A DNA stretch of 33,608 nt from Adhaeribacter rhizoryzae. GTDB taxonomy: Bacteria; Bacteroidota; Bacteroidia; Cytophagales; Hymenobacteraceae. Positions 3,921 through 30,408 of this stretch are shown here, piece after piece (positions within the stretch are counted from its first letter, which is position 1; the number at the start of each line of letters is the position of its first letter). The notes under the pieces are model-generated. The model saw nothing but the letters and a program-made list of their open reading frames with translations, did not search any database and had not been told where the DNA came from. The stretch spans positions 1 through 33,608 of the forward strand of contig NZ_VWSF01000036.1 in NCBI RefSeq assembly GCF_008629685.1. Reading direction: 5' to 3'. A program made the position numbers and the translations under genes.

Positions 3921-3960
3921 CTTTATAATTTAGAATAGGTAACTTAATGTTTCTCTTGAT

Positions 3961-5360: not shown

Positions 5361-6119
5361 ATGACTAATGTATTTGCAATTGTTAATGCAAAAGGAGGGG
5401 TAGCGAAGACCACATCCACTATGAATATTGGTTACGCACTTAACAAATTAGGTAAAAAAGTTTTATTAGTAGATTTAGATGCGCAAGCAAATTTGACCTT
5501 AACAGTAGGTATACGCACTGATGAATCTCTAAATATTTCTGATGCCTTAACTGATGGATGTAAAATTACAGACATAATACATAAAGTTAATGGTGTTGAT
5601 GTCATTAATTCTGGTCGAACTTTAATCGAAAGAGAACACACAATATCAAATTCAATTACTGGGGCAGTTAAGTTAAAATCTTTATTAAAAAAGATTAAGG
5701 ATAAATATGATTATATATTAATAGATTGCCCACCTTCATTAGGAATTTATACAGTATCCGCTTTGGTTGCCTGTGATTCTGTTTATATACCAATGGTTGC
5801 GGAGCCATATGCCTGGGATGGACTTTCGCGATTACTGGAAACAATCTCTATTATAAAAGAAGAGGAAATAAATCCAAATATTAAATTAGGAGGGTTATTT
5901 TTTACAAATAACTCAAAAAATGCTCAAACTATTTTAGGTAAAACTATCATCAGTGAAGCAAAAGAACAATTAGGAGAGAAGGTCCTAAAAACAACTATCC
6001 GTACTAATGTGTCATTAAATGAATCTATTGCTGTGAAACAGAATATATATGATTATGCTCCTGAATCAAATGGGGCTAAAGATTACATGAAACTTGCCAA
6101 AGAAATTATTAATAGTTAA
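5361..6119 (+). CDS. parA: ParA-family partition ATPase, 252 aa
   Basis: Deviant Walker A ATPase that segregates the plasmid by forming ATP-dependent patches on the nucleoid. Seen directly: KGGVAKTT at residues 11-18 with the signature lysine, LVDLDAQANLT at 36-46 (A' motif), and YDYILIDCPPSLG at 116-128 (Walker B). It begins with the core beta strand and lacks an N-terminal HTH, which places it in the short, type Ib-like group that works with a small RHH centromere-binding protein; that protein follows at 6187. The repeat-rich leader at 5244-5330 probably serves as centromere and operator. Confidence 0.95.
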   Translation: MTNVFAIVNAKGGVAKTTSTMNIGYALNKLGKKVLLVDLDAQANLTLTVGIRTDESLNISDALTDGCKITDIIHKVNGVDVINSGRTLIEREHTISNSITGAVKLKSLLKKIKDKYDYILIDCPPSLGIYTVSALVACDSVYIPMVAEPYAWDGLSRLLETISIIKEEEINPNIKLGGLFFTNNSKNAQTILGKTIISEAKEQLGEKVLKTTIRTNVSLNESIAVKQNIYDYAPESNGAKDYMKLAKEIINS

Positions 6120-9862: not shown

Positions 9863-9955
9863 TCAATAATCCTGCAGACCAGCAGAATCTCCGGCCAGTC
9901 CGGCTGTATCAACCGCTGCCGGCGCCAGGCCTTCCCATTCTTTCCCTTTACTTAA
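9863..9955 (-). pseudogene. Fragment of a coding frame ending at the Xer repeat
   Basis: On the minus strand a frame reads LSKGKEWEGLAP, then AAVDTAGLAGDSAGLQDY and stops at 9863-9865. It has good coding character but no start: upstream it runs straight into the repeat at 9950-10095, where TAA lies in frame. It could be the tail of a gene cut by recombination at that repeat. Short, so uncertain. Confidence 0.3.
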
Positions 9956-10095
9956 ATATAACAAAAGCCAGAATTTACCCTCTGTTTAACATAATCTTAG
10001 TTATCGGCGAAAAGCCATCTGAAGTGAACTGAGCGGACCTTTTTTTCGGGATTTTTCTGGTACTTTATAAGTAACCAGCCATTTCTCAGAAAAAC
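9950..10095. repeat. Left inverted ~145-bp repeat (Xer module end)
   Basis: The reverse complement of this stretch matches 23740-23885 over about 145 bp with identical blocks such as AAAGTACCAGAAAAA, AAAAGGTCCG, TCACTTCAGA, TTTCGCCGATAACT, ATTATGT and TAAATTCTGG in the same order and spacing. It contains the XerC/XerD-like core at 9984-10011. The match extends on both sides of the core, furthest on the XerC side, as accessory sequences do in cer/psi sites. Confidence 0.8.
9984..10011 (-). other. Candidate XerC/XerD recombination site (left)
   Basis: Read on the minus strand: an 11-base XerC-type arm TTCGCCGATAA, a 6-base spacer CTAAGA, and an 11-base XerD-type arm TTATGTTAAAC. The last differs from the E. 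coli dif XerD arm TTATGTTAAAT in one base. The 11-6-11 layout is that of dif, cer and pdif sites. The arm TTCGCCGATAA is identical in the inverted copy at 23828-23855. Confidence 0.6.
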
Positions 10096-10249
10096 TATCC
10101 CGTCCCTAAGAAAAATTCAATAATTCCTTCATATATTTATTATTACGTTTACCCCTTGGTTGTCGGTAACCCTTGAATATCTTTTTTATTCATCTTTCTT
10201 GTTAATAATGATATTGGGAGACAAAAAGGCCAATCTAAAATTTACTTAT
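10012..10249. other. Upstream region of the secreted protein gene
   Basis: The rest of the inverted repeat and about 150 bp of A/T-rich DNA. An upstream extension of the frame (from 10160) exists but has no coding character. Confidence 0.35.
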
Positions 10250-11764
10250 ATGAGAACAGTAATCTTTATATTAATTCTGCTGAGCGTTAGTATTTATGGT
10301 TATTCACAAACAAGTGACCCGGCGACTCAAAAAGAAAATTGTTTAAAAAGCATATCACAAGAGAAGAAAAAGGAACTTGATAGAATTGAGAGTACTTATT
10401 TTGAGAATAATCCTAACCCTTCAAAATATGTTTACTTAGCGTGCGATAATCATTTTCCTAAGTATCGTTGTGTAAAGCATCATAAACAATGCGCTGGTTC
10501 ATGTGATTGCCTAAGTGCGTATACAAATCAGGTGAATTATGTTGAGACAAGTTATAAGCAAAAAGAAGACGATTGCGAACAAAATTATAAGGTTGCTATA
10601 GCCAAAATCAATTCCCAAGAAAGAAATCTGAGCGAATTATCAAAATCTGAAAAAACCCTGACAACAAGTAGCCCTAATCCCGCCATCGATAATAAGACAG
10701 AAGTAAGTAATACGACCACAGAAAAGCAGCAATATCAAACTCAAGCGAATAACTATTTAAACCAAGCAAAAAACACCAATCAAAGCGCAGTTTTACGAAA
10801 TCTTAATCTTGATTTGGCGGAGACGAATGCGCGGCTTGCCGGAGATATTAACAAATTGGAAGAAATCAGACGGATTCGATCCCAAGAAAATCAAAGAAGT
10901 AACAGCGAGTTTTTGAATACTGTAAATTCGTTTACCAATTCACTTAATCAACTTACTCAAAATAAGCGACTTGAGAGGGAGAGACATAGAGAGTTTGTGG
11001 CGGCAATGGAACAACAGATAATACAAGAGCACTTAGAAGGATTTGAACGAGAAAGAAATATCAAAGATGCATCTGCACTTGGGCATGCATATAAAGACTC
11101 TGACTCTAAAATCTATTGGTTCTCCATAGCCGTCGGCATGGGACATCTACCTAGTTTACTCTACTTGCGGGAAGAGTACTTAAGAAAAGGAGATTCTACA
11201 ACTGCAAAAGAGCTTGTAAACTTTGGGGCAACTAAAGGGATTCCAAGGTTTATCTACATGGCTGCAAACAAATACTATCCAAATGAAAAATTATATAATG
11301 ATGATTATTTGGGATGGAAAAAGGAATTTTGGAATTTTGAATATGGGCAAACAGTGGATTGTGAAAAAGGACTAACTGCGTTAAATATTCTGATAGCAGT
11401 AGATACATTAAACGTAGATAATGTGCAGAATACTTTTTTTAATGTTATAAAAAAGGGAAACTTAGACGCTGTGCAAGACCCTATTAATTTCTCTTATTAC
11501 TATTACTATAATACGCATTATTTCGCCTTCCTTAAGCAGATATATTATTATATTGGAAGAATAACTGAATTTTGCGGTCCAGGAACTGAACGAGAGAACT
11601 TGGTTGAGGCTTTGCGGCGATATGATCAAGCCATAAAAGCACATAAACTATTTATGCAAGTTAGGGATTGGAATAAATACAAGGAAGATAAAGACTATAG
11701 ACTTAAATATCTTCTTTTTGTTAAAGGAAATACCGAAAAAAAAATAGCTCTGTTGGATAAGTAA
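10250..11764 (+). CDS. Secreted Cys-rich / Sel1-like protein, 504 aa
   Basis: ATG at 10250 gives a classic signal peptide (MRTVIFILILLSVSIYGYSQ), which an earlier start at 10160 would bury. The mature N-terminus holds a Cys cluster (YLACDNHFP, YRCVKHHKQC, GSCDCL) that could bind metal or form disulphides. Residues ~100-270 are coiled coil, rich in Gln/Asn/Glu. The C-terminal ~230 residues are helical with a Sel1/TPR-like cadence (ASALGHAYKDSDSKIYWFS, AVGMGHLPSLLYL, DSTTAKELVNFGATKG). Such proteins act as periplasmic or surface scaffolds. It is the first gene inside the inverted-repeat segment, plus strand, with no operon partner. Function unknown. Confidence 0.75.
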   Translation: MRTVIFILILLSVSIYGYSQTSDPATQKENCLKSISQEKKKELDRIESTYFENNPNPSKYVYLACDNHFPKYRCVKHHKQCAGSCDCLSAYTNQVNYVETSYKQKEDDCEQNYKVAIAKINSQERNLSELSKSEKTLTTSSPNPAIDNKTEVSNTTTEKQQYQTQANNYLNQAKNTNQSAVLRNLNLDLAETNARLAGDINKLEEIRRIRSQENQRSNSEFLNTVNSFTNSLNQLTQNKRLERERHREFVAAMEQQIIQEHLEGFERERNIKDASALGHAYKDSDSKIYWFSIAVGMGHLPSLLYLREEYLRKGDSTTAKELVNFGATKGIPRFIYMAANKYYPNEKLYNDDYLGWKKEFWNFEYGQTVDCEKGLTALNILIAVDTLNVDNVQNTFFNVIKKGNLDAVQDPINFSYYYYYNTHYFAFLKQIYYYIGRITEFCGPGTERENLVEALRRYDQAIKAHKLFMQVRDWNKYKEDKDYRLKYLLFVKGNTEKKIALLDK

Positions 11765-12003
11765 GTATTAATAAACATTAAGAGCTAATAAAGTTTGGTA
11801 ACCTTATATTAAGTTTAATTTTCCCTAACTTTTTTAATTACTTTCCAAAGATTAAAGGACTACCTACAACATTAGTATTATGTAAGTGTGGCAGGATATT
11901 ATAAATTGAGCAGACGAATATTATGGCATCAGTATATTTTTAATCAACAGGAGTGCTTCCAAATTCAAACCTGCATAAATACTTAAAGGTTGAGGTTTCT
12001 TAT
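11765..12003. other. Intergenic stretch, nothing recognised
   Basis: A/T-rich; no terminator with a T-run is visible after the gene ending at 11764. Confidence 0.3.
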
Positions 12004-12320
12004 TTATTCTCTGACCATCAATGTAGTATTACCCACTCCTCTTATAGCAAATCTACCAGTAAACTTTGCAGAATGTATGATTCTATACTCATTTCTGTTC
12101 CTAATACATGGACCCGGAATATACGGTCCTCCAAATAATCATTTAAGTGATTAGGTTTTATCGCATATGTTAATGGCAAAGTATCGGTTATACAACGAGC
12201 AGCGCCATCTTTAATGGTCGTTCAATTTATACTTCCACTAATAAGTATATTGCTCATAGTAGCGTATGCACCAGATTTAATAAGGTGTTTGTAAAGCATT
12301 TTCCCTCTTAATTGAGCCAT
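12004..12320 (-). pseudogene. Possible decayed gene upstream of the hig terminator
   Basis: On the minus strand ATG at 12320 opens MAQLRGKMLYKHL, continues YATMSNILISGSIN, hits TGA (12205-12207), resumes TTIKDGAARCITDTLPLTYA, and after a one-base shift near 12135 continues GGPYIPGPCIRNRNEYRI and FTGRFAIRGVGNTTLMVRE to TAA at 12004. The stretches look like protein but need one nonsense and one frameshift to be joined. Family unknown. Confidence 0.35.
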
Positions 12321-12373
12321 GTTGTAAGATTTATAAATTGGTATACAGTTTTTCTATACTATTAATAAAATAA

Positions 12374-12399
12374 AAAGCCTCTCTAGGTTGAGAGGCTTT
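12374..12399. terminator. Bidirectional terminator after higA
   Basis: AAAGCCTCTC (12374-12383) and GAGAGGCTTT (12390-12399) form a perfect 10-bp stem with loop TAGGTT; T-runs follow on the minus side (TTTTTATTTTATT). It lies 30 bp after the antitoxin stop. Confidence 0.85.
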
Positions 12400-12428
12400 A
12401 AAATCTTTATTTTTTAGCTATTTACAAT

Positions 12429-12824
12429 TTAATGATTGACTGTAGCTTCTAAAACTTTGTCATTAATAAAAACCTCCAGCGGAATATTTAACTCCTTATG
12501 GAGATTATTAATTTGCTCTAGTGTAAAATAGCGCTTGCGGTTTAATATTTCCGATACTCTTGATTTGGGCCCGATAAAAGGCTCAAGGTCTTTATTTTTC
12601 CATCCTTTTTCTTCCATCACATATTTTATGGCTTCTATCGGATCGGGGGTGTCGATAGGATAATGAATTTCTTCGTAGGCATGTACCAGCGTAGAGAGCA
12701 GCTCCAGTTCATCGAAAAGGTCCGTTCCTGGCTCTGGATTTTGCGCTAGAATAGCGTCAATTCGGCTCATGGCCTCCTTGTAATCTTCTTCATTTTTTAC
12801 TTTGTGAATTATTAGTGTTAACAT
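12429..12824 (-). CDS. higA: HigA-type antitoxin, 131 aa
   Basis: Antitoxin that binds and neutralises the HigB-type RNase encoded upstream and represses the operon. The N-terminal half carries the COG5499 pattern (NEEDYKEAMSRIDAIL, then GTDLFDELELLSTLVHAYEE, YPIDTPDPIEAIKYVMEE) and the C-terminal half an HTH (LEPFIGPKSRVSEILNRKR) whose recognition helix is SRVSEILNRKR. Full length for the family. It follows the toxin gene by 33 bp (toxin-first order, normal for higBA). DNA contacts are expected at the palindromes at 13173-13223. Confidence 0.93.
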   Translation of the reverse strand: MLTLIIHKVKNEEDYKEAMSRIDAILAQNPEPGTDLFDELELLSTLVHAYEEIHYPIDTPDPIEAIKYVMEEKGWKNKDLEPFIGPKSRVSEILNRKRYFTLEQINNLHKELNIPLEVFINDKVLEATVNH

Positions 12825-12857
12825 GGGCAGGGAGGGGGGTTGCTCGTTTATTTTTAA

Positions 12858-13151
12858 CTATACAGTATTAGCATCTATTTTATCATATTCCGCATGGGTT
12901 CCTATCCATCTGATGTATACGGTCTGGTTGGCTACTAGGACCACGGCAATCAGGCGATACTTGTTTCCTTTAATATTGAAAATCACTCTATTATTTCCTA
13001 TCACATCTACTGAATTAGCGACACTTCTTAACTCATTCAGGTTCGTAATTTTCAGGGCCTTTATTCTGGAAATAAATAATTGTAAGCCCGTTTTAGAATC
13101 TGCATGTTTGGTGTAGTATTCAACGATGGGCGAAGTAGAAATAATTCTCAT
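12858..13151 (-). CDS. higB: HigB-type mRNA interferase toxin, 97 aa
   Basis: RelE-fold ribosome-dependent RNase (HigB_toxin family, PF09907). The hallmark end is present: NNRVIFNIKGNKYRLIAVV, VYIRWIGTHAEYDKID, with the catalytic-site His/Tyr/Asp of GTHAEYDKI. The frame extends to 13199, but ATG at 13151 gives MRIISTSPIVEYYTKH, the standard N-terminus of the family, and the longer start would lie inside the operator. Expressed with higA from the promoter at 13169. On a plasmid it acts as an addiction module and may also limit phage growth. Confidence 0.93.
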   Translation of the reverse strand: MRIISTSPIVEYYTKHADSKTGLQLFISRIKALKITNLNELRSVANSVDVIGNNRVIFNIKGNKYRLIAVVLVANQTVYIRWIGTHAEYDKIDANTV

Positions 13152-13168
13152 GCCAGTTTTATCTGCAA

Positions 13169-13199
13169 TAAAGTTACATAAAGTGTAACGTTTATGCAA
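13169..13199 (-). promoter_or_regulatory. higBA promoter
   Basis: On the minus strand TTG (13199-13197) and TAACTTTA (13176-13169, seven of eight to TAnnTTTG counting the free bases) are 20 bp apart, the proper Bacteroidota spacing. The -7 box overlaps the first operator. Confidence 0.5.
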
Positions 13200-13223
13200 G
13201 TAATTAGTTACACTTTATGTAAC
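13173..13223. promoter_or_regulatory. Twin palindromic operators of higBA
   Basis: GTTACATAAAGTGTAAC at 13173-13189 is the exact reverse complement of GTTACACTTTATGTAAC at 13207-13223. Each is itself a GTTACA/TGTAAC palindrome with a 5-base centre; the second extends to 11-bp arms (AATTAGTTACA ... TGTAACTAATT). The centres are 34 bp apart, about three turns. This is the arrangement expected for cooperative binding of HigBA complexes and conditional repression. Confidence 0.85.
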
Positions 13224-13254
13224 TAATTAAGTGTAAGATATAAATAGACGGTAA

Positions 13255-13480
13255 TTAATCTGAGCTACGAGCGTGTATGCACTGTACCTGAACTGCCGGG
13301 AATTGTCTACCCCAACTGGTCCGGAACCTGACTTCCTCTAATTTCTCAGCGATGGCCGGCCAGTTTAATCCTTGCGCCCGGTAAAGTGTTACCACGGCCG
13401 CAGCTCTTTTATTATTTTGGTTTAATGATGCCAATGGTTAATGTGTTGGCATCGGCTATATCGGCACAGACAATGCTAGT
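13255..13480 (-). pseudogene. Remnant of a serine recombinase
   Basis: Minus-strand reading gives IVCADIADANTLTIGI, then after a deletion and frameshift NQNNKRAAAVVTLYRAQG, LNWPAIAEKLEE and FPAVQVQCIHARSSD to TAA at 13255-13257. This matches the intact recombinase at 14304 (FICADMPDANTLTIGI ... NQNNKRAAAMVQLYRAQG, LNWLAIAGKLNE, FQAVQVQRIYQRI) with about 75 codons missing in the middle. It proves an earlier duplicate of the recombinase that has decayed. Confidence 0.9.
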
Positions 13481-13521
13481 GGGTTAATGTTAAAGGTGCT
13501 AGGAATCCAATAGGGCAGGAA

Positions 13522-14292
13522 TTAATTTACTTTTTTGTCAATTGTCTCTACTAACTCGAATATATCATCTGGTATGCCTAGGTGCTTTTTTCCACAACCA
13601 CTGCACGCCGGTTTAATACTGGACCTGTAATCTTCATTAGCTTTAAATGCAGGCTTTATTTTAGAATTAAACAGATAAAAAATTAACGATTTATAAAAAT
13701 CTTTGTCATGTTGTAAAAAATTTTCTTGGTTGATATTATCAATTAAAGCATCAATTATACTTAATAGGTTATACAGTTCTTTTAAGGGTGGTGCTTCAGA
13801 ATAGATATCTTCGTGATTTTTGTAATCTTTCAATTGGTCGAGTAATACTCTTATCGCACTTACACCTGTATATGTAACCCTTTCTGTGCTACTCTGTGCG
13901 CCTTTTGTTATAGTTTTTCTAAAATGATATGTAAATTCATTTACATCATTTCTAACTAAATTAAACTTTTCTCCAGCGTATTGAAGTTTCCGTCTGATAA
14001 CTTCCTCTTCTTTTTGATTATCAATTTGTTCTTGTACCAACCGGTTTGCTTTAACCTGAGCATGTAAAGCAAAATAAACTAATATTGCGCCTATTAAATT
14101 TACAAATGGAGCTGTTATACCACCTATGGTGTCCCCAATAGGACCAGTTTCGCGAAAGTCAAAGCCTTCCCAATAATATTGGCGAGTAAAGAGGAGTGGC
14201 GCAATACTTACCAGAACAATTCCAATAAGAAAAATGATTGTTGCCCATTTTAGGGTAGCATCAAGTTTAATAGGCCTATTTTTATATAACAT
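13522..14292 (-). CDS. PutAbiC-like membrane abortive-infection protein, 256 aa
   Basis: Two membrane helices at the N-terminus (about residues 16-35, TIIFLIGIVLVSIAPLLF, and 58-77, ITAPFVNLIGAILVYFAL) separated by the signature RETGPIGDTIGGITAPF, then a coiled coil (QVKANRLVQEQIDNQKEEE) and a helical cytoplasmic domain. This order is that of the putative phage abortive infection proteins (PF16872, AbiC of Lactococcus as namesake), which stop phage spread by harming the infected cell. The C-terminus adds a CSGC pair (C230, C233) with a nearby His, a possible half zinc site. The gene follows the intact recombinase by 11 bp, so the two are probably co-transcribed, and it is enclosed between recombinase copies. 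Confidence 0.8.
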   Translation of the reverse strand: MLYKNRPIKLDATLKWATIIFLIGIVLVSIAPLLFTRQYYWEGFDFRETGPIGDTIGGITAPFVNLIGAILVYFALHAQVKANRLVQEQIDNQKEEEVIRRKLQYAGEKFNLVRNDVNEFTYHFRKTITKGAQSSTERVTYTGVSAIRVLLDQLKDYKNHEDIYSEAPPLKELYNLLSIIDALIDNINQENFLQHDKDFYKSLIFYLFNSKIKPAFKANEDYRSSIKPACSGCGKKHLGIPDDIFELVETIDKKVN

Positions 14293-14303
14293 ATTTAAAA
14301 GCT

Positions 14304-15008
14304 TTAATTGGCAGCTATGCGCTGATAAATCCGCTGCACCTGTACTGCCTGAAATGCGCCGCCTTTACTAGCCCGAAACCCGGCCTCGTTTAACTTACCA
14401 GCGATGGCTAGCCAGTTTAAACCCTGCGCCCGATAGAGCTGGACCATGGCCGCAGCCCGTTTGTTATTTTGGTTTTCGGCGGCTTTTTGCTTGACCGCTA
14501 GCCCACCGGCCAACCGGTGTTCATAGGTGAGGTTAACCGGCTTACCTAATTTATTAATCACGTTGCCATTTTTGGAAACCGTCCAGCCTTCTGTTTCTAT
14601 TTTGTGTTTAATCTGACGCAAGGCCGCTTTGGTGCGGCTGCTAATCATTTCCCGCTCATGTTGAGCCATGACCGCAAAGATGCCAATGGTTAACGTGTTG
14701 GCATCCGGCATATCGGCACAAATAAAATCAACCCCGCTATCCTTCAAGGTAAAAATAAAAGCGGCATTGCGGCTGAGCCGGTCCAGCTTGGCAATCACCA
14801 AAGTGGCTTTGGTTTTGCGGGTATGTTCGATGGCGGCCAGTAGCTGCGGCCGGTTGTTTTTCTTGCCGCTCTCCACCTCGATATATTCCCCGGCAATTTT
14901 CCCGCCTTTCAAAAAAGAAGCCACGGCGTATTGCTGCGCTTCCAGGCCCAGGCCACTGGCCCCCTGCTTGGCGGTACTTACCCGGTAATAGGCGACATAC
15001 TGTTTCAT
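14304..15008 (-). CDS. Serine recombinase (resolvase/invertase), 234 aa
   Basis: N-terminal catalytic domain with the nucleophile S11 in YYRVSTAKQG, the arginines of IAKLDRLSRN, and the usual DMPDANTLTIGIFAVMAQHEREMISSRTK that leads into the E helix. The C-terminal part ends in a HTH (LNWLAIAGKLNEAGFRASKGG). Size is that of small resolvases rather than large integrases. It may resolve plasmid multimers or have moved the AbiC-like gene. Upstream, 16 bp away, is a truncated copy; downstream, beyond the AbiC-like gene, a decayed one. Notably G/C-richer than the AbiC-like gene it precedes. Confidence 0.93.
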   Translation of the reverse strand: MKQYVAYYRVSTAKQGASGLGLEAQQYAVASFLKGGKIAGEYIEVESGKKNNRPQLLAAIEHTRKTKATLVIAKLDRLSRNAAFIFTLKDSGVDFICADMPDANTLTIGIFAVMAQHEREMISSRTKAALRQIKHKIETEGWTVSKNGNVINKLGKPVNLTYEHRLAGGLAVKQKAAENQNNKRAAAMVQLYRAQGLNWLAIAGKLNEAGFRASKGGAFQAVQVQRIYQRIAAN

Positions 15009-15024
15009 GCGGATAAACTAAAAT

Positions 15025-15360
15025 TTAAGCAGTAAAAAAGGTGTCGAACAGATCCAATTGAACGGCCAGAATAACTAAGCCGGACTGGCGCAAATTCGCT
15101 ATAAAAGCCGGGTCACGACACAACCGGTTCAACCGGTCTACTATCAGCGTGCTTCCGGTAACCTGGGCATGGGCAATAGCCGCATCCAGCTCCGGCCGGC
15201 CGTTACTCAGCCCACCACCTACTCCGGTATACTCGGCTACCAGTTCGCCTTTCCCTTTGATAAAGGTTTTTACCATCTCTTGCTGGGCCTTTAACCCAAA
15301 ATCGCTTTTGGCCTGGAGCGGGGTACTGGCCCAGTAATAAGCGATATACTTTTTCTCCAT
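15025..15360 (-). pseudogene. Truncated serine recombinase copy, 111 aa
   Basis: MEKKYIAYYWASTPLQAKSD aligns with the start of the intact enzyme; the nucleophile Ser is kept but the preceding conserved Arg is Trp. It continues SNGRPELDAAIAHAQVTGST, LIVDRLNRLCRDPAFIANL and stops after residue ~110, before the E helix and the DNA-binding domain. The frame is open further up to 15402, but those codons lie in an inverted repeat. Without a C-terminal domain it cannot recombine; it could at most form inactive dimers. Confidence 0.8.
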
Positions 15361-15388
15361 CTTAGGGTAAAAGTAATCGTTTTGGGTT

Positions 15389-15428
15389 ATTTTACAAACC
15401 ATGAACGAGCGTTTATGGTTTGTAAAAT
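15389..15428. other. Perfect 14-bp inverted repeat upstream of the recombinases
   Basis: ATTTTACAAACCAT (15389-15402) and ATGGTTTGTAAAAT (15415-15428) with a 12-base spacer. It sits between the divergent recombinase cluster and the YhcG gene. The 40-bp length fits a resolvase-binding subsite or an operator; as a terminator it would be odd here. Confidence 0.65.
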
Positions 15429-15521
15429 GGCCAGAATCACCATTCTTTCCGATATTAATTTTTTCACTATAATCATCTGGCTAGTTCTTGCAGCTGTATA
15501 TGTTATAATGTAATATTAGGA

Positions 15522-16649
15522 ATGACAGATTTGGACTTAAATCAAGGAGAAACTTACCGGACTTGGCTGGCAGAGTTGAAGAATAGAATACAAGTTTCTC
15601 AACTGAAAGCAGCAGTTAAAGTAAATACTGACCTCATTCTATTATACTGGCAATTGGGAAAAGAAATAGTTGAAAAACAACAAGCAGCAAATTGGGGAGA
15701 AGCCCTGATTGAGCAATTGTCAAAAGATCTAAGTTCCTCCTTCCCTGAAATGAAAGGCTTCTCTCGCACTAATCTCTTCTATGTTCGGAAGTGGTATCTC
15801 TTTTATAGTCAAGAACAGGAGTTAGTCCCACAGCTTGTGGGACAATTAAGTGAAATTACTCAGTTAAATAGAGAGCAAGAATTAATCCCACAGCTTGTGG
15901 GATTAATTCCTTGGGGACATAACAGGGAAATAATAACCAAATGCGCGGACGTTAAAGAAGCGCTCTTTTATGTGAGTGAGACGATTCGCCACAATTGGTC
16001 CCGTACTGTACTGCTATACCAGTTAGAAAGTAAGCTATACCAGCGGCAGGGAAAAGCCTTGAACAATTTTGCTTTGACTTTGCCCCAACCTCAAGCAGAA
16101 TTAGCCATAGAAACGCTCAAGAATCCATATAACTTTGATTTCCTCAGTTTAGGTCCGCAAGCCCGAGAAAGGGACCTGGAGAATGCGCTGGCTGATCAAG
16201 TAACAAAATTTCTCCTTGAGTTGGGTCAAGGTTTTGCTTACATGGGCAAGCAGTACCGGCTCAGTATTGGAGGAGATGATTTTTACCTAGACATTCTATT
16301 GTATCATACGAAGCTACGCTGCCATGTGGTGGTTGAGTTGAAGATGACAGAGTTTCAGCCAGAATATGCGGGAAAACTGAATTTTTACCTCAATGCCGTA
16401 GATGCGCAGTTGCGGCACCCGAATGACAATCCCAGCATTGGAATTCTTCTCTGTAAGACGCCCAATAAAGTGGTGGTGGAATATTCACTAAAAAATCTAA
16501 CCGCTCCGCTAGGAGTAGCAGAATATCAGCTGACGCAGGCTGTTCCCGAAGAGTTAAAAGGGGAGTTGCCGGCCATTGAAGAGCTAGAAGAAGAGCTCGA
16601 AAGAAGACTCAATACTAATAGCGATCATAAGAAGGATAACCGTGTTTAA
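15522..16649 (+). CDS. YhcG/DUF1016 PD-(D/E)XK nuclease, 375 aa
   Basis: N-terminal DUF1016_N helical domain (ILLYWQLGKEIVEKQQ, WGEALIEQLSKDL, KGFSRTNLFYVRKWYLFY) followed by the linker IPWGHN typical of the family and a C-terminal PD-(D/E)XK domain. Catalytic residues visible: E220 (RDLENAL), D257 (FYLDILLYH), E272 and K274 (VVELK), then the AGKLNFYLNAVD helix. Family members occur in restriction and other defence loci and are predicted DNA nucleases. Two palindromic insertions duplicate QELVPQLVG just before IPWGHN. It is read toward the giant STAND gene 95 bp downstream and may form an operon with it. Some fold-level uncertainty about substrate remains. Confidence 0.9.
   Translation: MTDLDLNQGETYRTWLAELKNRIQVSQLKAAVKVNTDLILLYWQLGKEIVEKQQAANWGEALIEQLSKDLSSSFPEMKGFSRTNLFYVRKWYLFYSQEQELVPQLVGQLSEITQLNREQELIPQLVGLIPWGHNREIITKCADVKEALFYVSETIRHNWSRTVLLYQLESKLYQRQGKALNNFALTLPQPQAELAIETLKNPYNFDFLSLGPQARERDLENALADQVTKFLLELGQGFAYMGKQYRLSIGGDDFYLDILLYHTKLRCHVVVELKMTEFQPEYAGKLNFYLNAVDAQLRHPNDNPSIGILLCKTPNKVVVEYSLKNLTAPLGVAEYQLTQAVPEELKGELPAIEELEEELERRLNTNSDHKKDNRV
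15825..15909 (+). repeat. Two coding palindromes inside the YhcG gene
   Basis: CCCACAGCTTGTGGG occurs at 15827-15841 and 15887-15901. The first is palindromic over GTCCCACA/TGTGGGAC, the second over 14-bp arms from 15879 to 15909 (arm GAATTAATCCCACA). Both encode the same phrase PQLVG. The insert lies in the variable linker before the IPWGHN motif, so the protein tolerates it. Confidence 0.85.
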
Positions 16650-16744
16650 TCTTAAGCTAAGAACCCTATTTGCTAAAGAAAAACCCCATTCAAGCATTAT
16701 AGACCAGTATATCTATTTTAATTTTACTTGTTAATCAATTTATT

Positions 16745-19700
16745 GTGCTTGCCTCCGCCCACCAAGGATATATCTATCAAGACATCTTAGGAGCTTATTT
16801 TGTAGCTCAAGAACTCGCTTATGGAAGAGTATCAACAACATTTGATTTTGATCATAAAAAAACGACTAAAGGAGTTCCTGATAAGTTTGATGATCTGGTA
16901 ATTTTTCAAGAAGGAAAAACAACCTTTCTCCAAGTTAAGTATAGCAATGACGAACACAAGCATGCTTTAGCCAAACAGGATTTTTCTTCAACTGGTCCCT
17001 ATGGTTTAGCACTATTTGACCTCTTTAAAACGTGGAAAGACCTACATAGACCTGGATGTTCTTGGAGGATATGCTTAGCTTGGGATCAACCAGCATCTGA
17101 CGATCCGATTCGCACAGTACTTATCCAGCTACCTGACCAAAAAAGTTTTCTTACAGGAACAACGTGCTATAAATTCGATAGCGATGCACTTTGGCCAGAA
17201 AGTGGTGAAGTTTTATCTTCATGGAATGCACTGAAAAAATGGTCAAAATCAGCCGATAGAACAATGTTCAAAGAGTTTCTGGATTGCCTTGTTATTGAAG
17301 TGAACTATCCAAAATCAACACTTCTACAAGACTACACTCAAGGACTTGAAAAGCAGTTAGCTCGGACAATAGAAAAAATTGGTATCGGTGTCTATCCCAA
17401 TGATCATCTAACTGTCCGCCAAGTTGCTGAGAGCTTGTGTACTATCGCACAAAGAAGAAGAGCTACAAAAAATAGCAAACCAATAAGTTGTAAAGACATT
17501 GCTCAAGAAATTGGCATAATCCAGTCCTATGGTGGCATAGAACAGAATTTCCCTATTGATGAAAACGTGCTTGTCACAACGTCCGAACGTGTTGAGCAAG
17601 TTGCTAAAGCCCTAGAAGAGCATCGTATAGTTGTTCTCACTGCTGAGCCGGGTGCTGGGAAGTCATGGTTTATTGAAAATCTCGAGAAGCATCTCCAGGA
17701 TACTACACAGATAGTAAAGCACTACTGTTATACTGCACTTGAAGACCCTCTTTCTCTTAAAAGAATTACCGTAAATGTTTTGTATGGTAGTCTTATTACT
17801 CAAATTCTTCAAAGTGATGAAGAATTAGGAAGTTTTAAGACCAAAAAATATGCTTCTAATCTAGAAGAACTAAATCTTCTTCTTAGAAATATCAGGAAAA
17901 AGACGCTCCTAATTGTCGACGGAATCGACCATATCTGGAGGGTGTACCAAAAGAACAGAGGAGGACTTACTGAAGACGAAACCACAATACTTCGGGCACT
18001 GGCACAACTCGATTGCTCCAATTCGTATGTATCGCTCCTTATAGTCTCACAGCCAATCGAGCAATTAGGTAAGCTTACACCATTTTATCAGTGCATATTA
18101 GCCCCTCTTACAGAGACTTTCGTTGAGGAGCTTTTAGGAAACCATGCAATTCCAAACAGTGAAGTAAATGAAATGTCACTTTCGCATATTATCCATAAGA
18201 AAAGTAATGGAAATGCCTTATATTGTAAATATATTATTGACCATGTTCTAGCCAACAAGGCACATACCTCTTTTGATTGGATTACCTCTCTTCCAGCCTA
18301 TCAATTTAATCTAACTGGATACTATCAATATTTGTATGAGCAGATTCAAGGCGATACGAGGGTGCCTTATGCGTTATGTGGAGCAGATTTTTCATTAACT
18401 GAAGATGAACTCAAGCATATTACCCATCTTGGCAAAGCTGTTTCGACACAACTAAATCAATTAAGACCGATCCTCAAGTACACAGCCGCACATGGATACT
18501 CTGTTTATCATGAAAGTTTTAAGCGTTTTGTAGTTAATACGATTAGGGAAGAAGAAGCATCAATTAACGACCTGATTTATCGCCCGCTTATTGCATGGCT
18601 TGAAAAGCATTCCTTTTTTGAATCTACGAAAGCATATGGTCATCTTTTAAAACTATACTACGAAATTGGTTCTTACGGTCGGATCGCAGAGACAATTGCA
18701 ATAGACTTCGTTAATAATAGTCTCTATTATGCTCAGCCCTTCCATAGTATCTATCGAAACCATCATCTTCAAAAAGCATCGCTCCATCATGTGGATGGAT
18801 TTGCTCCAATGATTATTATCGCAGAGCAGTCAAAAATTATTAACGAACTTGAGCATGTCGCTGAAAGTGTTCTTATCAACTATCTTAAGGCGGTTCAGCA
18901 GATTCATGGAGAAGAACCGATGTATCGTGTTCTTTGGGACGGAGAACATCTCTTAGTTAACACTAACGAAGCATTACGTTTTCTAGCTCAACAAGCATAC
19001 CTAGGGGAGCCTATTGTTCATTGGTCAATTGTTCCTAAACCTTCGAGCATACCATATGAAATTCTAGGTTTAATAGCAGTTAAATTTCTTCATACGAAGC
19101 AGTATGACAAGTTTGAAGAAATGTTCAAGAAAGCATATGAAAATCCAGAGTATAGAGAAGCTTTAGAAATTATAATAGATGAAATCGAATGGTACAGGAT
19201 ATACATTAAAGTTGATTGGACTATAAACACTCCATATTTTCATAGTATCCTCACTTCATCTAAACCTTCTGCCCTAACACTTAAGCAGGCAGTAGAACGA
19301 ATTATTTTAAACAAAGATTTTGTTTACGATGATGAGTGGAAGAGTATGATTCATGAGCTTTCTGCTTTAGCAAAAATAGCGACGCCGGAAGAAAGAGATA
19401 TGGCTATAGAGACTCTATCCCAATATAATTGGTTTCGGAACTGGCTTATCTATCTGATTAAGATAGCTGAACTTTCACAAAGAAAATATGACAGCGAAGA
19501 GCTTATAGATGCATTTACCTACCTTGTACGAGATCTCGAGCCTTTTAAAGGAGAGCCTCGTGTAAGTGATCTCTACAAACAACTTCCTTTTATTAAGAAG
19601 ACATTTCATAAGGGTTTACTACTCTGTAATGGTGATGAGAGCCTTCTCACCTCGTGTTGTGAACTTCTGGAAAAAGTGACAGAGGTTACAACAAGCTTTC

Positions 19701-22348
19701 AACACTCTTTTAGCGGTCCATTGACAGACGAAGAGTACCTAGAACTAATCGCGAACTATTTGCCAAGAGAGTACGTGATTGCTAAATATGAAAAGTATTT
19801 TGCTCCGTTAGGTTCAAGAAGACTCTATTCCTATGTGGCTGAAATTGCCTTCGAATATGCACGCTTATTGAGTAAGTCAGGAAGGGCTGAGGAAGCAAAG
19901 GTGAAGTACGGCGAAGGAATTCAAGCACTCACCGCATATGGATTTAGAAAAGATCGCACTTTCAGTGAAATATTATACTGTAGTGTTCCATACCAAATAG
20001 CATACGGTACATTAAGTGTAGAATGGTTCTATGAACTTTATTCTATGGCCATGACCGTTGTTACTCATACGGATGGAAAGTCTACAAGTAGATACCCGAT
20101 TGAATGGTTTGAAGAGTTTATTAAAGTATATCCACTTGATGCGCTGAGATTTATAGTGAGTGAAACACTAGAAAGTTCGGGAGCGAATTGGCACCAGGAG
20201 AAAGAATTCTCTCATTTATTAGAAGAGCATCCTTCCATCTTTACACCGACGCAGTGGTTTCTCCTGTGTAGGTCTCTTCCCATCGCTTCATCAGGTAAGA
20301 TTATTGATCAGGGTTTAACAGTATTTAATCAGATTGATGCAAGCCTGCAAGAAGTGTATCTCAGATGGCTACAATCACGGTCTCGAATTTTACAGGACGA
20401 GGAAGAATCGACATATACCTTAGAAATAGCTACTCGGTTTAAAAAGCAATTTGGTATTTCTCTTAAAATTAAAGAAGAATCAGAAAAGCGAACCGGCCTA
20501 GAAAAAATTCAAATACCAGAGGAGTTTCCAACAAAGTCAATAGAAGAGGCTCTTGCATTTCTTGAGAAGAATAGTCTAGCGGAACACCACGCGCAAGCAC
20601 TTATAGAGTTAATTGCCTCTACAACTGACTGGGAGGAAACCAAAGCAATTCTCAGTCAAGTTGCTCGTAGTTTTAGATATGGCCGTAATGAGGAGAAGTG
20701 GGTAAACTTTCTTTTTGAACCCGGAAGCCGTACATGGCTCTACTTTAATGTATGTCTCTTCGTATTCGTTACAGATGGATGGTACCATGGCCTTCACTAC
20801 ACACAATACCTTAAGCAGGCTTACGAAGTTAATTCTAAAGAAACCCTTTTGATACTTAAAGAGGTGCTAGCAGACTTACTATCTGCTGATATATATACAG
20901 GCCTTATTTCGTGTAATCTCATCAAAGCATTGTCTGAACTCCAAGTTGATGAATCTCAGGTTCATGATCTCATTCAGATGACATTTCAAATCGTAAAACG
21001 TCGTCTGCCCCATCCTCCAAACTCAGATATAAATACAACTATATATCAGGGACTTGAAGGATTTAGTCGCGATGAGATGGTTGTAGCACTATTGATCGCA
21101 AGGCTCAAAACTTTAACAACTGAAAAAACCCAGGGTGTTATATGGTCACTAACATATATAGCACAAACAAAACCAGAGACGCTTTTTAAACCTTATAGTT
21201 GGGCATTTTCAAACAACACTTACTTCCTACCTATCCATAGAGGTGTTCTCCTTCAGATTCTTAAAGAATTTGTCGATCTGAAATTAATCCCTATAGGGCT
21301 CATTGGGCAATTTATTAATAATTACCCAACTGGATTCTTTCTTGAAGACCAATATATTCGCTCATTTGTCAATTACAGTATAGAATTAGATGAGACCTCA
21401 GCAAGAAGTATTCTACATCAAGCTCATCAAGAAGACAACGGGTTCTTTTCTTATATTCATGTAAAATACAGAACTCTCTATAAATACTTTGGACCTCTTA
21501 CAGGATCATTTAATGCTTATGTCTATAAAAGGGACGAAATAAATAAAAAGCATAAGTCCTACTATATGAGGGCCGAGGATATAATAACTCCTATTGTTCC
21601 TCTTGCCAATGCAACATACGAAATAATAAATAGTCAATTTTACGAGCACTTAAAAGAGCTTACGGATTACTTTAATCCAGCTTATGTTTGTGATCTTAAT
21701 TTCTTCTTGCCAGAAATTGTCCTTCAGGTTGGTACCTTATCAACAAGGCCACCAAGTATCCCATACCCCGAGAACTTTCCTTCCTTTGAAGTGCGTGACA
21801 CTACCACTCCTTTAAATGATAATGATTGGATAGTTCTCGCTTCAAAGGAAAAAGAACTCTATGGTGACCGTCATAAATCTAAGAATACTCGGTACTCATC
21901 ACTATTGCTAACATCCGGTGAAAGACCAAAGCCTGATGAAGAATTCTATGCACGACATCTCTTTAGGGCAAAACAATACAGAGGAGGAGAAATTAAAAAA
22001 TATCCATACGACCAGCCAATCTGTATGCTAGATATTTTTGACACTCTTGAACGTACTAACCTTGTCTATGTCTCTCCTTTTATCATTAGAGAACTCGGGC
22101 TTAAAATCAATCCTAACCTTCATGCAGGCTTCCAAGCACTCAATAATTTTGGTGAGGTTATAATAACTATGGTTACCTGGAAAGAGAATTACTATGGTAG
22201 CGTTGAGGATGGGACGGAAGCCCCACAATTGGAAGGAGTAGCAGTAATGATAAGGGCAGATCACTATGCTCGCCTTTTAGCTGTTTATAAAAACGAGAGT
22301 TGGTTTGTTTTAAGACAGGATGATACTAGAGAGCATATATGGAAATGA
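16745..22348 (+). CDS. Avs-like STAND NTPase with Cap4-type nuclease, 1867 aa
   Basis: A giant intracellular sensor-effector protein. Residues 1-~200: nuclease domain of the Cap4 type, with GYIYQD (8-13), FDDLVIF (48-54, acidic active-site residue) and LQVKYSN (62-68, the Q-x-K of PD-(D/E)XK). Residues ~275-600: STAND/NACHT-type ATPase, Walker A in TAEPGAGKSW (299-308), Walker B LLIVDGIDH (388-396), sensor LLIVSQP (431-437) and winged-helix end YHESFKRF (588-595). The remaining ~1270 residues are helical, TPR-like repeats that in Avs proteins recognise phage proteins such as terminase or portal. Start is GTG at 16745, directly before the domain; no ATG fits. It follows the YhcG nuclease. Which Avs type, or a new one, cannot be told by eye; the C-terminal sensor has no feature I know. 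Confidence 0.88.
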   Translation: MLASAHQGYIYQDILGAYFVAQELAYGRVSTTFDFDHKKTTKGVPDKFDDLVIFQEGKTTFLQVKYSNDEHKHALAKQDFSSTGPYGLALFDLFKTWKDLHRPGCSWRICLAWDQPASDDPIRTVLIQLPDQKSFLTGTTCYKFDSDALWPESGEVLSSWNALKKWSKSADRTMFKEFLDCLVIEVNYPKSTLLQDYTQGLEKQLARTIEKIGIGVYPNDHLTVRQVAESLCTIAQRRRATKNSKPISCKDIAQEIGIIQSYGGIEQNFPIDENVLVTTSERVEQVAKALEEHRIVVLTAEPGAGKSWFIENLEKHLQDTTQIVKHYCYTALEDPLSLKRITVNVLYGSLITQILQSDEELGSFKTKKYASNLEELNLLLRNIRKKTLLIVDGIDHIWRVYQKNRGGLTEDETTILRALAQLDCSNSYVSLLIVSQPIEQLGKLTPFYQCILAPLTETFVEELLGNHAIPNSEVNEMSLSHIIHKKSNGNALYCKYIIDHVLANKAHTSFDWITSLPAYQFNLTGYYQYLYEQIQGDTRVPYALCGADFSLTEDELKHITHLGKAVSTQLNQLRPILKYTAAHGYSVYHESFKRFVVNTIREEEASINDLIYRPLIAWLEKHSFFESTKAYGHLLKLYYEIGSYGRIAETIAIDFVNNSLYYAQPFHSIYRNHHLQKASLHHVDGFAPMIIIAEQSKIINELEHVAESVLINYLKAVQQIHGEEPMYRVLWDGEHLLVNTNEALRFLAQQAYLGEPIVHWSIVPKPSSIPYEILGLIAVKFLHTKQYDKFEEMFKKAYENPEYREALEIIIDEIEWYRIYIKVDWTINTPYFHSILTSSKPSALTLKQAVERIILNKDFVYDDEWKSMIHELSALAKIATPEERDMAIETLSQYNWFRNWLIYLIKIAELSQRKYDSEELIDAFTYLVRDLEPFKGEPRVSDLYKQLPFIKKTFHKGLLLCNGDESLLTSCCELLEKVTEVTTSFQHSFSGPLTDEEYLELIANYLPREYVIAKYEKYFAPLGSRRLYSYVAEIAFEYARLLSKSGRAEEAKVKYGEGIQALTAYGFRKDRTFSEILYCSVPYQIAYGTLSVEWFYELYSMAMTVVTHTDGKSTSRYPIEWFEEFIKVYPLDALRFIVSETLESSGANWHQEKEFSHLLEEHPSIFTPTQWFLLCRSLPIASSGKIIDQGLTVFNQIDASLQEVYLRWLQSRSRILQDEEESTYTLEIATRFKKQFGISLKIKEESEKRTGLEKIQIPEEFPTKSIEEALAFLEKNSLAEHHAQALIELIASTTDWEETKAILSQVARSFRYGRNEEKWVNFLFEPGSRTWLYFNVCLFVFVTDGWYHGLHYTQYLKQAYEVNSKETLLILKEVLADLLSADIYTGLISCNLIKALSELQVDESQVHDLIQMTFQIVKRRLPHPPNSDINTTIYQGLEGFSRDEMVVALLIARLKTLTTEKTQGVIWSLTYIAQTKPETLFKPYSWAFSNNTYFLPIHRGVLLQILKEFVDLKLIPIGLIGQFINNYPTGFFLEDQYIRSFVNYSIELDETSARSILHQAHQEDNGFFSYIHVKYRTLYKYFGPLTGSFNAYVYKRDEINKKHKSYYMRAEDIITPIVPLANATYEIINSQFYEHLKELTDYFNPAYVCDLNFFLPEIVLQVGTLSTRPPSIPYPENFPSFEVRDTTTPLNDNDWIVLASKEKELYGDRHKSKNTRYSSLLLTSGERPKPDEEFYARHLFRAKQYRGGEIKKYPYDQPICMLDIFDTLERTNLVYVSPFIIRELGLKINPNLHAGFQALNNFGEVIITMVTWKENYYGSVEDGTEAPQLEGVAVMIRADHYARLLAVYKNESWFVLRQDDTREHIWK

Positions 22349-22575
22349 ACATCTGCTGTATTTTTAAAAGAGTAAATCCATATACGCACGGAGAAGTTTA
22401 TTTCTAGTTAATATAAAAACGATTATTAGTCTAATTACCCTTTGTTAAGCATTCGACTGGAAGATGGACTATAAACGGGAGCAGCAGGAAAGTTTTGCTT
22501 ATTGTTATGCTATTCGCAGCAATGAAGGAGCCGGGGTATAGGACGGCGGGGGATAGTATTTACTCCCTTTATTTT
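22349..22575. other. Gap between convergent defence genes
   Basis: 227 bp between the STAND gene and the minus-strand nuclease gene. No clear terminator; nothing else seen. Confidence 0.35.
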
Positions 22576-23595
22576 TCATTCTAAATGTATAGTTTCATAA
22601 TCAATAATTATATCCTTTGGTTGAAAGTTTATCGCCAATATTAAAACCTCTTTTACTCCTTCAACCCTTAATTCGTTAACGTAGTTATTTAATTTAATTT
22701 GAGTTAATGCAGTACTAACATTTGTATTGTCTGATTTAATTTCAATAAGAAGTCCTGGGTGATTTTTGTTAATTGGGAAAGCACAAATATCATATCTGCC
22801 GAAACCGGATTCTTTATTCGATTTTAAATTGTAGAGATTTAATCGACCTTCTAATATTCCAAGAAGATAAACATGATAGTATTTTTCTTTTTCATCTTTA
22901 CTTATGTCGTGATAGCTCGGTATGAACAAAGCATTTTTTAAATTTTCAGTCAGAAGTTCATAATTCCTTTGAAGTAAAGGAGTTAAAAAGTTTCTCCCTT
23001 TTACGTTTACCTCTAATCCTAATTTATAGCTCTCAATAATCTCTTTTAGCTCAATTCCAAAATCTAATTTATCAAGCTCAATCAGTTCTTTTAAATCTTT
23101 GATTCTCTTATCTAGGTATTCTTTATATCTCTCTATGAATTTCTGTGGATGAGTATTATTATAACTATCTTTCTGTTTCTCAATCGTTAGGAGCTTTATT
23201 GCTTCACTATACTTTTTGTCCTGGATTTTTACTTCAATTTCTCTTTCATATTCATTAGAAATCAAATTTATCATTGAATTTGTAAGCCAGACTAAATCTA
23301 TGTATAGTACATGACTCATCATTTCATTTGCAGATGTATCATTTTCAACTTCTTTTTTCTCATAAAACTCAATTCCCTTCATCGCTGAATAAATTGCAGG
23401 ATGAGAAGTCATAGGGACTTTGCCATCTATTGACTTGATGCTTTTTCCTATTTGAATTGAGCATAAAATTTCTTTTCTATCATATGGAATATTTCTATCC
23501 GTAAAAAAAGTTATTTGAAATTTATCAATTAGAGCAAGTATTTTTTCCGCAGCTCTTGCTAATTCATAAATACTATAATAGGGCCCGTATTCCAT
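22576..23595 (-). CDS. PD-(D/E)XK nuclease-domain protein, 339 aa
   Basis: The last ~100 residues form a PD-(D/E)XK nuclease of the type seen at the end of DUF1703/AAA proteins: YHVYLLGILEGRL, then NKESGFGRYD (D269), GLLIEIK (E285, K287) and a long TALTQIKLNNYVNEL helix. The usual N-terminal AAA ATPase is absent; instead there are ~240 residues of helices (e.g. YDRKEILCSIQIGKSIKS, MMSHVLYIDLVWLTNSMINL) that I do not recognise. A stand-alone nuclease with an unknown sensor or regulatory half fits the defence context. Low G/C like the AbiC-like gene. No partner in an operon. Confidence 0.8.
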   Translation of the reverse strand: MEYGPYYSIYELARAAEKILALIDKFQITFFTDRNIPYDRKEILCSIQIGKSIKSIDGKVPMTSHPAIYSAMKGIEFYEKKEVENDTSANEMMSHVLYIDLVWLTNSMINLISNEYEREIEVKIQDKKYSEAIKLLTIEKQKDSYNNTHPQKFIERYKEYLDKRIKDLKELIELDKLDFGIELKEIIESYKLGLEVNVKGRNFLTPLLQRNYELLTENLKNALFIPSYHDISKDEKEKYYHVYLLGILEGRLNLYNLKSNKESGFGRYDICAFPINKNHPGLLIEIKSDNTNVSTALTQIKLNNYVNELRVEGVKEVLILAINFQPKDIIIDYETIHLE

Positions 23596-23739
23596 ATCTT
23601 TTTTTATTGATACTGTTTTCTTTCTTGAGCATAATTAGTGGCTAAAAGGAGTTATTACGCTTAGCCGCCGATCAAGGGTTAGCTAAACGTAATTGCGGCC
23701 GTATATATAGTAAAAAATTAATGTATTTAAAGGAAGTAC
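23596..23739. other. Gap with a short interrupted inverted repeat
   Basis: ATTACGCTTAGC at about 23652 and GCTAAACGTAAT at about 23681 are near-complementary around CGCCGATCAAGGG. It may be part of the recombination region next to the repeat that follows. Confidence 0.35.
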
Positions 23740-23885
23740 CGGATGGTTTTTAGGAAACGACCATTTATAGAGAAAGTACCAGAAAAAGCCTCTAAAAAAG
23801 GTCCGTTCAGCTCACTTCAGAGGCCCTTTCGCCGATAACTCGTATTATGTAAAATAAAGGATAAATTCTGGGTTTCTTTATATTT
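23740..23885. repeat. Right inverted ~145-bp repeat (Xer module end)
   Basis: Inverted copy of 9950-10095; see there. A 31-codon frame (ATG at about 23742, ending CGCCGATAA at the XerC arm) is open in this copy but frameshifted in the other, so I do not call it a gene. Confidence 0.8.
23828..23855 (+). other. Candidate XerC/XerD recombination site (right)
   Basis: XerC-type arm TTCGCCGATAA (identical to the left site), spacer CTCGTA, XerD-type arm TTATGTAAAAT (one mismatch from E. coli dif). Orientation is opposite to the left site, so recombination between them would invert the 13.8 kb between; the differing spacers may limit that. Confidence 0.6.
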
Positions 23886-24259
23886 AAAAGAAGGGTTTAG
23901 AAGAAATTCTGACGCCTAGTGTTGCTAGTGGATGAATTACCCGTACTGCCTTGGTCTCACGAATTCCATCTCAAATGTTTTGTTTGGCCCTTTACGCTCC
24001 CCCACCATCTATGGCCTATAATTGCACTTATCCTACTTCAATTAATAGTTAATAGTTCTCCTCCAGAAGACGACAAACAGTTGGTAGGAACGAAGCGTTT
24101 ATTTACCATTGACAACTTCGCCTGCAGCCATATCTATGTAGATAAGGGGAATAGACGAAACTCCGCATCGGACCATTGTTCGATAGCTCAACACTGTCCG
24201 ATTAAGTAGTGGCTACTACAACTTAGAGATTACTTTGAGCTAATATTTTCTAAGGTATA
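23886..24259. other. Intergenic stretch, no gene supported
   Basis: A 96-codon plus-strand frame at 23919-24209 is open but has the composition of chance translation and no recognised motif. Nothing else seen apart from the terminator that follows. Confidence 0.35.
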
Positions 24260-30398: not shown

Positions 30399-30408
30399 CA
30401 GCTTTTGA

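Follow-up and report, generated by a model that had tools for sequence, protein, structure and literature searches.

Inverted Xer-type sites with conserved flanks as putative borders of exchangeable modules on plasmids of Hymenobacteraceae

An island between two inverted sites on an Adhaeribacter rhizoryzae plasmid

The window, which is the whole 33,608-nucleotide (nt) stretch analyzed here, is contig C30 (NZ_VWSF01000036.1) of the Adhaeribacter rhizoryzae genome (G000, 6.52 Mb in 53 contigs) and carries a Rep_3 replication initiator, a ParA partition ATPase and an island of 13.8 kb framed by two inverted repeats with Xer-like recombination cores (Table 1). These two sites and their relatives in Hymenobacteraceae, which appear to border exchangeable plasmid modules, are the subject of this study. 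The first and last 123 bases of the window are identical, giving a circle of 33,485 bp; because the same 123 bases also open one other contig of the genome, C41, closure as a plasmid is likely but unproven. The 22-bp direct repeats upstream of rep are probably iterons.

The two repeats, 149 nt long and 77% complementary, exceed in length every other inverted pair listed in the window, and they contain 11-6-11 cores with a common XerC arm (TTCGCCGATAA), as the initial annotation had described. Ungapped identity between them spans about -80 to +60 from the core start and falls to 4-7 of 20 positions outside, which bears out the further claim that homology reaches longer on the XerC side. The XerC arms and accessory flanks of both sites point into the island, and the cores have the layout of Xer sites, their inner bases being ATAA and TTAT and their XerD arm resembling that of the host dif; each XerD arm is also one base off the E. 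coli XerD arm. The 11-mer TTCGCCGATAA occurs twice in the window as an exact match and three times if one mismatch is allowed (shuffle mean 0.39; 0 of 100 shuffles reached three), and 20 times genome-wide compared to 15 for the reversed control, so that by itself the 11-mer is unremarkable. With three mismatches or fewer, the 28-bp pattern was found eight times in the genome and not at all in the control.

Two inverted Xer cores 13.8 kb apart could act as an invertible switch, in which recombination between site A and site B flips the island and alters expression, and inversion of the island had been predicted initially. The spacers of the two sites, CTAAGA and CTCGTA, are unlike at three of six bases, however, and not identical as the crossover sequences of such a switch would be. 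Two Acinetobacter studies describe recombining partners with identical or nearly identical spacers (PMC13141974, PMC11705084), and by that rule A and B should not recombine, which makes inversion unlikely. Seven other strong inverted pairs described below also have unlike spacers, although chance predicts this too. We therefore rejected the switch, which we hold to be hardly credible, on the unlike spacers, and the predicted inversion was not upheld.

Table 1. Features of the window, with positions counted from its first letter. The C module is named in Acinetobacter terms.
Feature	Position	Strand	Basis or remark
Iteron-like 22-bp direct repeats, upstream of rep	3817..3941	.	repeat family D2
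Rep_3 replication initiator, backbone, D module	4024..5151	+	family match
ParA partition ATPase, backbone	5361..6119	+	family match
GIY-YIG gene	6524-6847		outside island
Full repeat around site A	9944..10092	-	accessory flank facing island
Xer core, site A: TTCGCCGATAA-CTAAGA-TTATGTTAAAC	9984..10011	-
Site A, XerD arm	9984-9994
Site A, spacer	9995-10000		CTAAGA on -
Site A, XerC arm	10001-10011
Accessory box AAAGTACCAGAAAAA of site A	10052..10066	-	AGTACCA box of site alignment
Island, C module (both XerC arms inside), 13.8 kb	10012..23827	.	core orientation
534-amino-acid (aa) protein	10160..11764	+	no Pfam family above cut-off
Helix-turn-helix antitoxin	12429..12824	-	PADLOC PD-Lambda-2_B, E 1.1e-40; PF01381 below cut-off
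HigB-type toxin	12858..13199	-	PF09907, E 2.8e-25
256-aa protein	13522..14292	-	phrog_8999 (function unknown)
Small serine resolvase	14304..15008	-	PF00239; relatives in many loci around other sites
Partial serine resolvase	15025..15402	-	PF00239
YhcG/DUF1016 PDDEXK nuclease	15522..16649	+	PDC-S02
STAND-type NTPase, 1867 aa	16745..22348	+	AAA_22, NPHP3_N
PDDEXK_9 nuclease family protein	22576..23595	-
Full repeat around site B	23747..23895	+	accessory flank facing island
Accessory box AAAGTACCAGAAAAA of site B	23773..23787	+	AGTACCA box of site alignment
Xer core, site B: TTCGCCGATAA-CTCGTA-TTATGTAAAAT	23828..23855	+
Site B, XerC arm	23828-23838
Site B, spacer	23839-23844		CTCGTA
Site B, XerD arm	23845-23855
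Giant leucine-rich repeat (LRR)/DUF6443 gene, 1939 aa	24636-30455		outside island

A plasmid-type site family related to chromosomal dif

With a sequence-only model of the sites, we scanned the family (up to 16 candidates scored per genome) and the order (eight per genome). The model matched 39 of 204 family genomes (expectation value, E <=0.001), including all eight of the genus Adhaeribacter; genus g5 accounts for six of the 39, each with a single weak match, which in one of the six, G133, is the chromosomal dif itself, and 33 are left without this genus. In the order, 12 of 390 genomes matched (E <=1e-6), all of them in Hymenobacteraceae, and a scan of 84,980 species for the exact pattern returned 16 stretches, 13 from Pontibacter and three from Adhaeribacter. 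As the A. rhizoryzae genome alone has 13 matches (E <1e-4), the site is multi-copy and, within the range searched, lineage-specific. The bare site gave a single short match in PLSDB, to Bartonella (E 0.4). An alignment of 25 Adhaeribacter and Pontibacter sites revealed a box 43-53 bases before the core that contains an exact AGTACCA in 18 of them.

The chromosomal dif of these bacteria provides the nearest comparison. A dif pattern search in 150 family genomes gave matches in 37, compared to two for the reversed control, and no match in the remaining 113. Seventeen of the 150 genomes share one 27-mer, TTGTCTTATAATTTATATTATGTTAAA, without a single difference, and it was taken as chromosomal dif; its position in G002, 2.55 Mb, is close to the maximum of the cumulative GC skew (2.0-2.7 Mb, 20 samples), and with this family-type dif in place another G002 site, at 4.45 Mb, was rejected as a candidate for chromosomal dif. 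The A. rhizoryzae genome has a dif form with spacer TTTTTG on contigs C22 and C11. The window sites resemble the family dif in their inner ATAA and TTAT bases and in the XerD arm, which is one base off, but their XerC arm (TTCGCCGATAA) differs from that of dif (TTGTCTTATAA) at 4 of 11 positions, so that the likeness to the host dif on which the initial annotation relied holds for the XerD arm and only in part for the XerC arm. A second difference is the accessory box, since AGTACCA is absent within 110 bp upstream in all 23 chromosome-type dif records. These comparisons support the view that the window repeats are plasmid-type Xer sites, related to chromosomal dif yet distinct from it.

The genome encodes an XerD above cut-off (G000:C1:701123) and a second close homologue (C20:37593), which is probably XerC; all four genomes tested (A. 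rhizoryzae and three others) encode XerD together with a close homologue. One A. rhizoryzae contig, C11 (124 kb, with identical 123-bp ends), has the dif TTGTCTTATAATTTTTGTTATGTTAAA at 81-107 and again at 124285-124311, and the same dif lies at C22:126-152. C11, which also bears a plasmid-type site of its own at 103123, may represent an element that Xer recombination attached at dif.

Exchange borders in related plasmids

Comparison of both flanks across 77 site records brought out pairs whose homology is confined to one side of the core. The clearest case is a slot shared by six Pontibacter plasmids (G096, G026, G150, G144, G076 and G094). Both of its outer flanks are 88-96% identical, and its inserts, of four kinds and 1.1-2.8 kb long, are framed by a dif-like core on the left and a further core on the right. 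The left core has a shared XerC arm (AATTCTCATAA) followed by GC and then variable sequence, and in the right core the XerC arm and flank are variable and the XerD arm (TTATGTTAAAA) is common or one base off. The switch in homology falls within the 6-bp spacer or next to it, a position for which homologous recombination in the flanking DNA offers no explanation. The insert in Pontibacter actiniarum is annotated with merTP, an ArsR/SmtB-family regulator and an oxidoreductase. Two further pairs share their spacers. C11 of A. rhizoryzae and C24 of A. aerolatus (both CTGGTA) are identical to the right of the core over 227 of 227 bp to the contig end, and to the left only the site flank is alike (76%); the far end of the shared segment has only weak, differently oriented dif-like cores. 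The Pontibacter contigs L126 and L128 (both CTACTT) are 96% identical to the left over 3 kb, with no homology to the right. Exchange with breakpoints at the cores, which the initial annotation had suggested looking for in related plasmids, was borne out in these relatives. Judged by its breakpoints, the six-plasmid slot is a case of Xer-type module exchange, and the comparisons support the conclusion that sites of this family lie at borders of gene exchange between plasmids in relatives of the window.

These borders also bear on whether the repeat is simply a common intergenic element with a regulatory or structural function, scattered over the genome, that looks like dif and has nothing to do with recombination. 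Such an element would account for the 13 matches in the A. rhizoryzae genome, some of them on long contigs, and for the damage seen in several cores, and the repeat is indeed dispersed, which is half of what the initial annotation had named as a refutation. However, the exchange borders of relatives coincide with the sites, homology switching inside or beside the spacer; in addition, 70 of the 77 records keep the 11-6-11 core within two mismatches, a count that is partly by construction as the model includes the core, and the XerD arm is that of chromosomal dif. A plain dispersed repeat, rejected because of the breakpoints at the spacer, appears very improbable.

The layout of the window recurs in a related plasmid of 35,266 bp (G006:C3, assembled with redundancy), whose rep and ParA DNA is 75-76% identical to that of the window. 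It likewise has two inverted sites, and in both plasmids segments are bounded by inverted sites with alternating C and D modules, terms taken from an Acinetobacter study (PMC13141974). The replicon of G006:C3 is a C module, unlike that of the window, in which Rep_3 is present and the XerD arms lie inside, making a D module and not a C-module backbone of the Acinetobacter type. A PLSDB search with the first 8 kb of the window gave four records, the best of which, Pontibacter akesuensis Paks1, matched in rep only.

Neighbor orientation was counted over 147 listed matches (three duplicate copies were dropped from 150), for neighbors within 30 kb. Strong sites (E <=1e-12) form eight pairs, including that of the window, and all eight are inverted, two of them on chromosome-sized contigs (G002:C2 and G003:C3); inverted outnumber direct neighbors by 8 to 1 at a cut-off of 1e-10 and by 11 to 3 at 1e-8. 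Identical spacers recur more often than expected, with 34 identical pairs among 70 sites compared to 9.1 by column shuffling (reached in 0 of 5000 shuffles) and, once flank-homologous sites are removed, 20 among 61 sites compared to 6.3 (reached in 4 of 5000). This recurrence fits partner matching. Sharing is mixed in the individual cases, since A and B are unlike, the C11/C24 and L126/L128 pairs match and the ends of the Pontibacter slot do not. Site B also has its spacer in common with a site on another contig of the genome, C25, so that a cointegrate with C25 is the specific prediction.

Several observations weigh against taking the sites as module borders. The inverted bias vanishes over all 147 matches (15 inverted, 11 direct), so that it rests on strong sites; the cut-off of 1e-12 was picked after the data had been seen, and in one of the eight strong pairs (C32) the second site has a broken XerD arm. 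Spacer recurrence could still stem from older common descent. Unlike spacers at the two slot ends mean that a single integration with perfect homology fails to explain the slot, its left core is degenerate in G076 and G094, and no site was seen at the far end of the 0.7 kb replaced between L126 and L128. An insert-free Pontibacter kalidii plasmid, in which homology ends about 100 bp outside each core, has no recognizable site and was for this reason rejected as a clean empty slot. The exact AGTACCA box is missing in 7 of the 25 aligned sites, and the C37 site has no flank. In the eight genomes of the genus, over 3.3-3.6 kb across each border of the island, there was no gene-length match crossing one border. 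Finally, many plasmids and small circles have only one listed site, which fits multimer resolution.

The broken site of C32 (27515-27610) retains its flank, XerC arm and spacer (CTGGTA), and its XerD arm ends after TTAT; it has the look of a half site that remained after recombination or a deletion.

The last of the points above touches the strongest alternative. In the cer and psi sites of ColE1 and pSC101, the XerC side of an Xer core adjoins conserved accessory DNA, with binding sites for ArgR/ArcA and PepA. They occur as single sites on small plasmids, and cer-type topology should prevent exchange between plasmids. The sites described here could likewise serve only in multimer resolution, one per replicon, with a flank that enforces resolution and bars exchange between plasmids; the pair in the window would then stem from plasmid fusion and the content between the sites would be accidental. 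The XerC-side flank is indeed conserved, as in cer, albeit with a resemblance in position only, and one site is listed on several plasmid contigs and small circles such as G150:C84 (6 kb) and G132:C16 (5.5 kb). In contrast to cer and psi, two inverted sites are present on the window plasmid and on G006:C3, and the breakpoints that fall on cores in plasmids of Pontibacter and Adhaeribacter, which indicate exchange between plasmids, the eight strong inverted pairs and the recurrence of the two-site layout all argue against a role in resolution alone, as does, for an origin by fusion, the single rep gene among the 20 open reading frames (ORFs) scanned in the window. We regard such an exclusive role as unlikely but as a live rival, and resolution may coexist with module exchange: plasmids with a single site probably use it for multimer resolution as well.

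Probable module exchange and its relation to known Xer systems

Taking these lines together, we consider it likely that the sites form a family of plasmid Xer sites in Hymenobacteraceae that bound exchangeable modules, with the island of the window as one module and its Rep_3/ParA replicon as the other. Each site would consist of an XerC/XerD core and a conserved accessory flank on the XerC side. Host XerC and XerD, perhaps with accessory proteins bound to the flank, would recombine sites of matching 6-bp spacer that lie on different replicons or inside a cointegrate, and a second recombination at another matched pair would resolve the cointegrate and leave genes exchanged, so that the segment between neighboring sites would behave as an exchangeable module. 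In the window the modules would be the block of HigBA, serine resolvases, YhcG nuclease, STAND NTPase and PDDEXK_9 protein on the one hand and the replicon on the other. That host XerCD act here, the part played by the flank and the cointegrate route are our deductions from sequence. Module exchange is well supported for the family, and for the window island we infer it. Of the initial proposal of modules between sites akin to the plasmid dif (pdif) sites of Acinetobacter, then, the Xer-type sites and the exchange borders in relatives stand, and the inversion does not.

Beyond the repeats, the borders of the island itself match other contigs within the genus over short, one-sided stretches. 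On the XerD side of site A, 171 bp (9803-9973) match G006:C3 and G006:C2 at 74%, the match in G006:C3 adjoining what looks like a decayed core, and on the XerC side of site B a one-sided match extends for at most 263 bp in C32. Mobility of the island is presumed from the sites at its borders. Most of the conflict genes lie within it, roughly as annotated initially, but the GIY-YIG gene and the giant LRR/DUF6443 gene are outside. The YhcG protein is 82% identical to one encoded on P. akesuensis plasmid Paks1, whose gene adjoins a weak site, with a second site on the same strand 6.6 kb away. The STAND-type NTPase had no match in PADLOC, in PHROG or, by sequence, to any chain of a solved structure, and is possibly an undescribed sensor. 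Cargo was scanned in 10 of 11 modules (141 of 171 ORFs, the G005 module and five short ORFs being left out), and the 25 commonest families were considered. Among these families, the ten other modules include resolvases, RES/Xre toxin-antitoxin families, an oligonucleotide cyclase, E2 and capP models of the cyclic oligonucleotide-based antiphage signaling system (CBASS) type and other PADLOC families; as this cargo is listed without a control set, we make no claim of defense enrichment.

Further details of these loci were noted. On Paks1 (NZ_CP014767.1, 42000-56000), NERD, DUF4209 and YhcG-type genes lie between two same-strand Xer-like sites, in a segment that adjoins resolvase, Rep and ParA genes. 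In the window, fragments at 13277-13473 resemble parts of the neighboring resolvase gene (14304-15008) and look like the remains of an older, decayed HigBA-resolvase unit; in G006:C2 antitoxin and resolvase still lie near each other. Outside the island, the region 24636-33606 holds the giant LRR/DUF6443 gene and then a 1065-aa protein of no Pfam family. A partial copy of this region, 88-94% similar, is present on C41 (L230), together with a dif-like core that lies at about position 380, not far from the shared end of 123 bp.

The closest counterpart is found in the dif modules, or pdif sites, on Rep_3 plasmids of Acinetobacter. As outlined in two studies, these are modules between inverted Xer sites with unlike spacers, of alternating C and D type, in which the Rep_3 replicon is one module, a C module with OrfX, and the cargo includes higBA-type toxin-antitoxin and serine recombinase genes (PMC13141974, PMC11705084). 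The plasmids studied here differ in belonging to another phylum, in the XerC-side AGTACCA flank of most sites and, for the window, in a backbone that is a D and not a C module and in a 13.8-kb island with defense-type genes; for two sites discussed in PMC11705084, no accessory sequences close by are reported. Dif modules are described as unique to Acinetobacter in PMC13141974, and none of the titles and abstract openings listed by a literature search dealt with Xer modules on plasmids of Bacteroidota. Within the same phylum, microvirus proviruses of Bacteroidetes with dif-like ends presumably use host XerC/XerD, according to one report, and also represent foreign DNA joined to the host at dif-like sequences (PMC3091885). 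Those are phage genomes in chromosomes, whereas here a resident dif-like site on a plasmid holds pieces of cargo of 1.1-2.8 kb and plasmid modules are bounded by sites with accessory flanks. Another paper on phages of Bacteroidetes that use Xer is PMC9719478. The Hymenobacteraceae sites extend the pdif/dif-module kind by a variant with cer-like flanks.

More boldly, Hymenobacteraceae may independently have turned the host Xer system into a means of gene capture, in which circles or plasmids with one complete, accessory-flanked site join or exchange at simple dif-like slots on larger plasmids to give defense, toxin-antitoxin and metal-resistance cassettes, with the AGTACCA flank as a new accessory element that lets XerCD act apart from chromosome segregation; we offer this tentatively, as a possibility that we do not favor. 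If module exchange is true, Hymenobacteraceae would be a second, unrelated lineage with Xer module borders, and plasmid gene shuffling of this kind could arise repeatedly. The sites with conserved flanks form a set for testing directly what accessory sequences do when plasmids recombine through Xer, and the exchange, if true, would provide a route by which defense, toxin-antitoxin and mercury genes pass between plasmids of Hymenobacteraceae.

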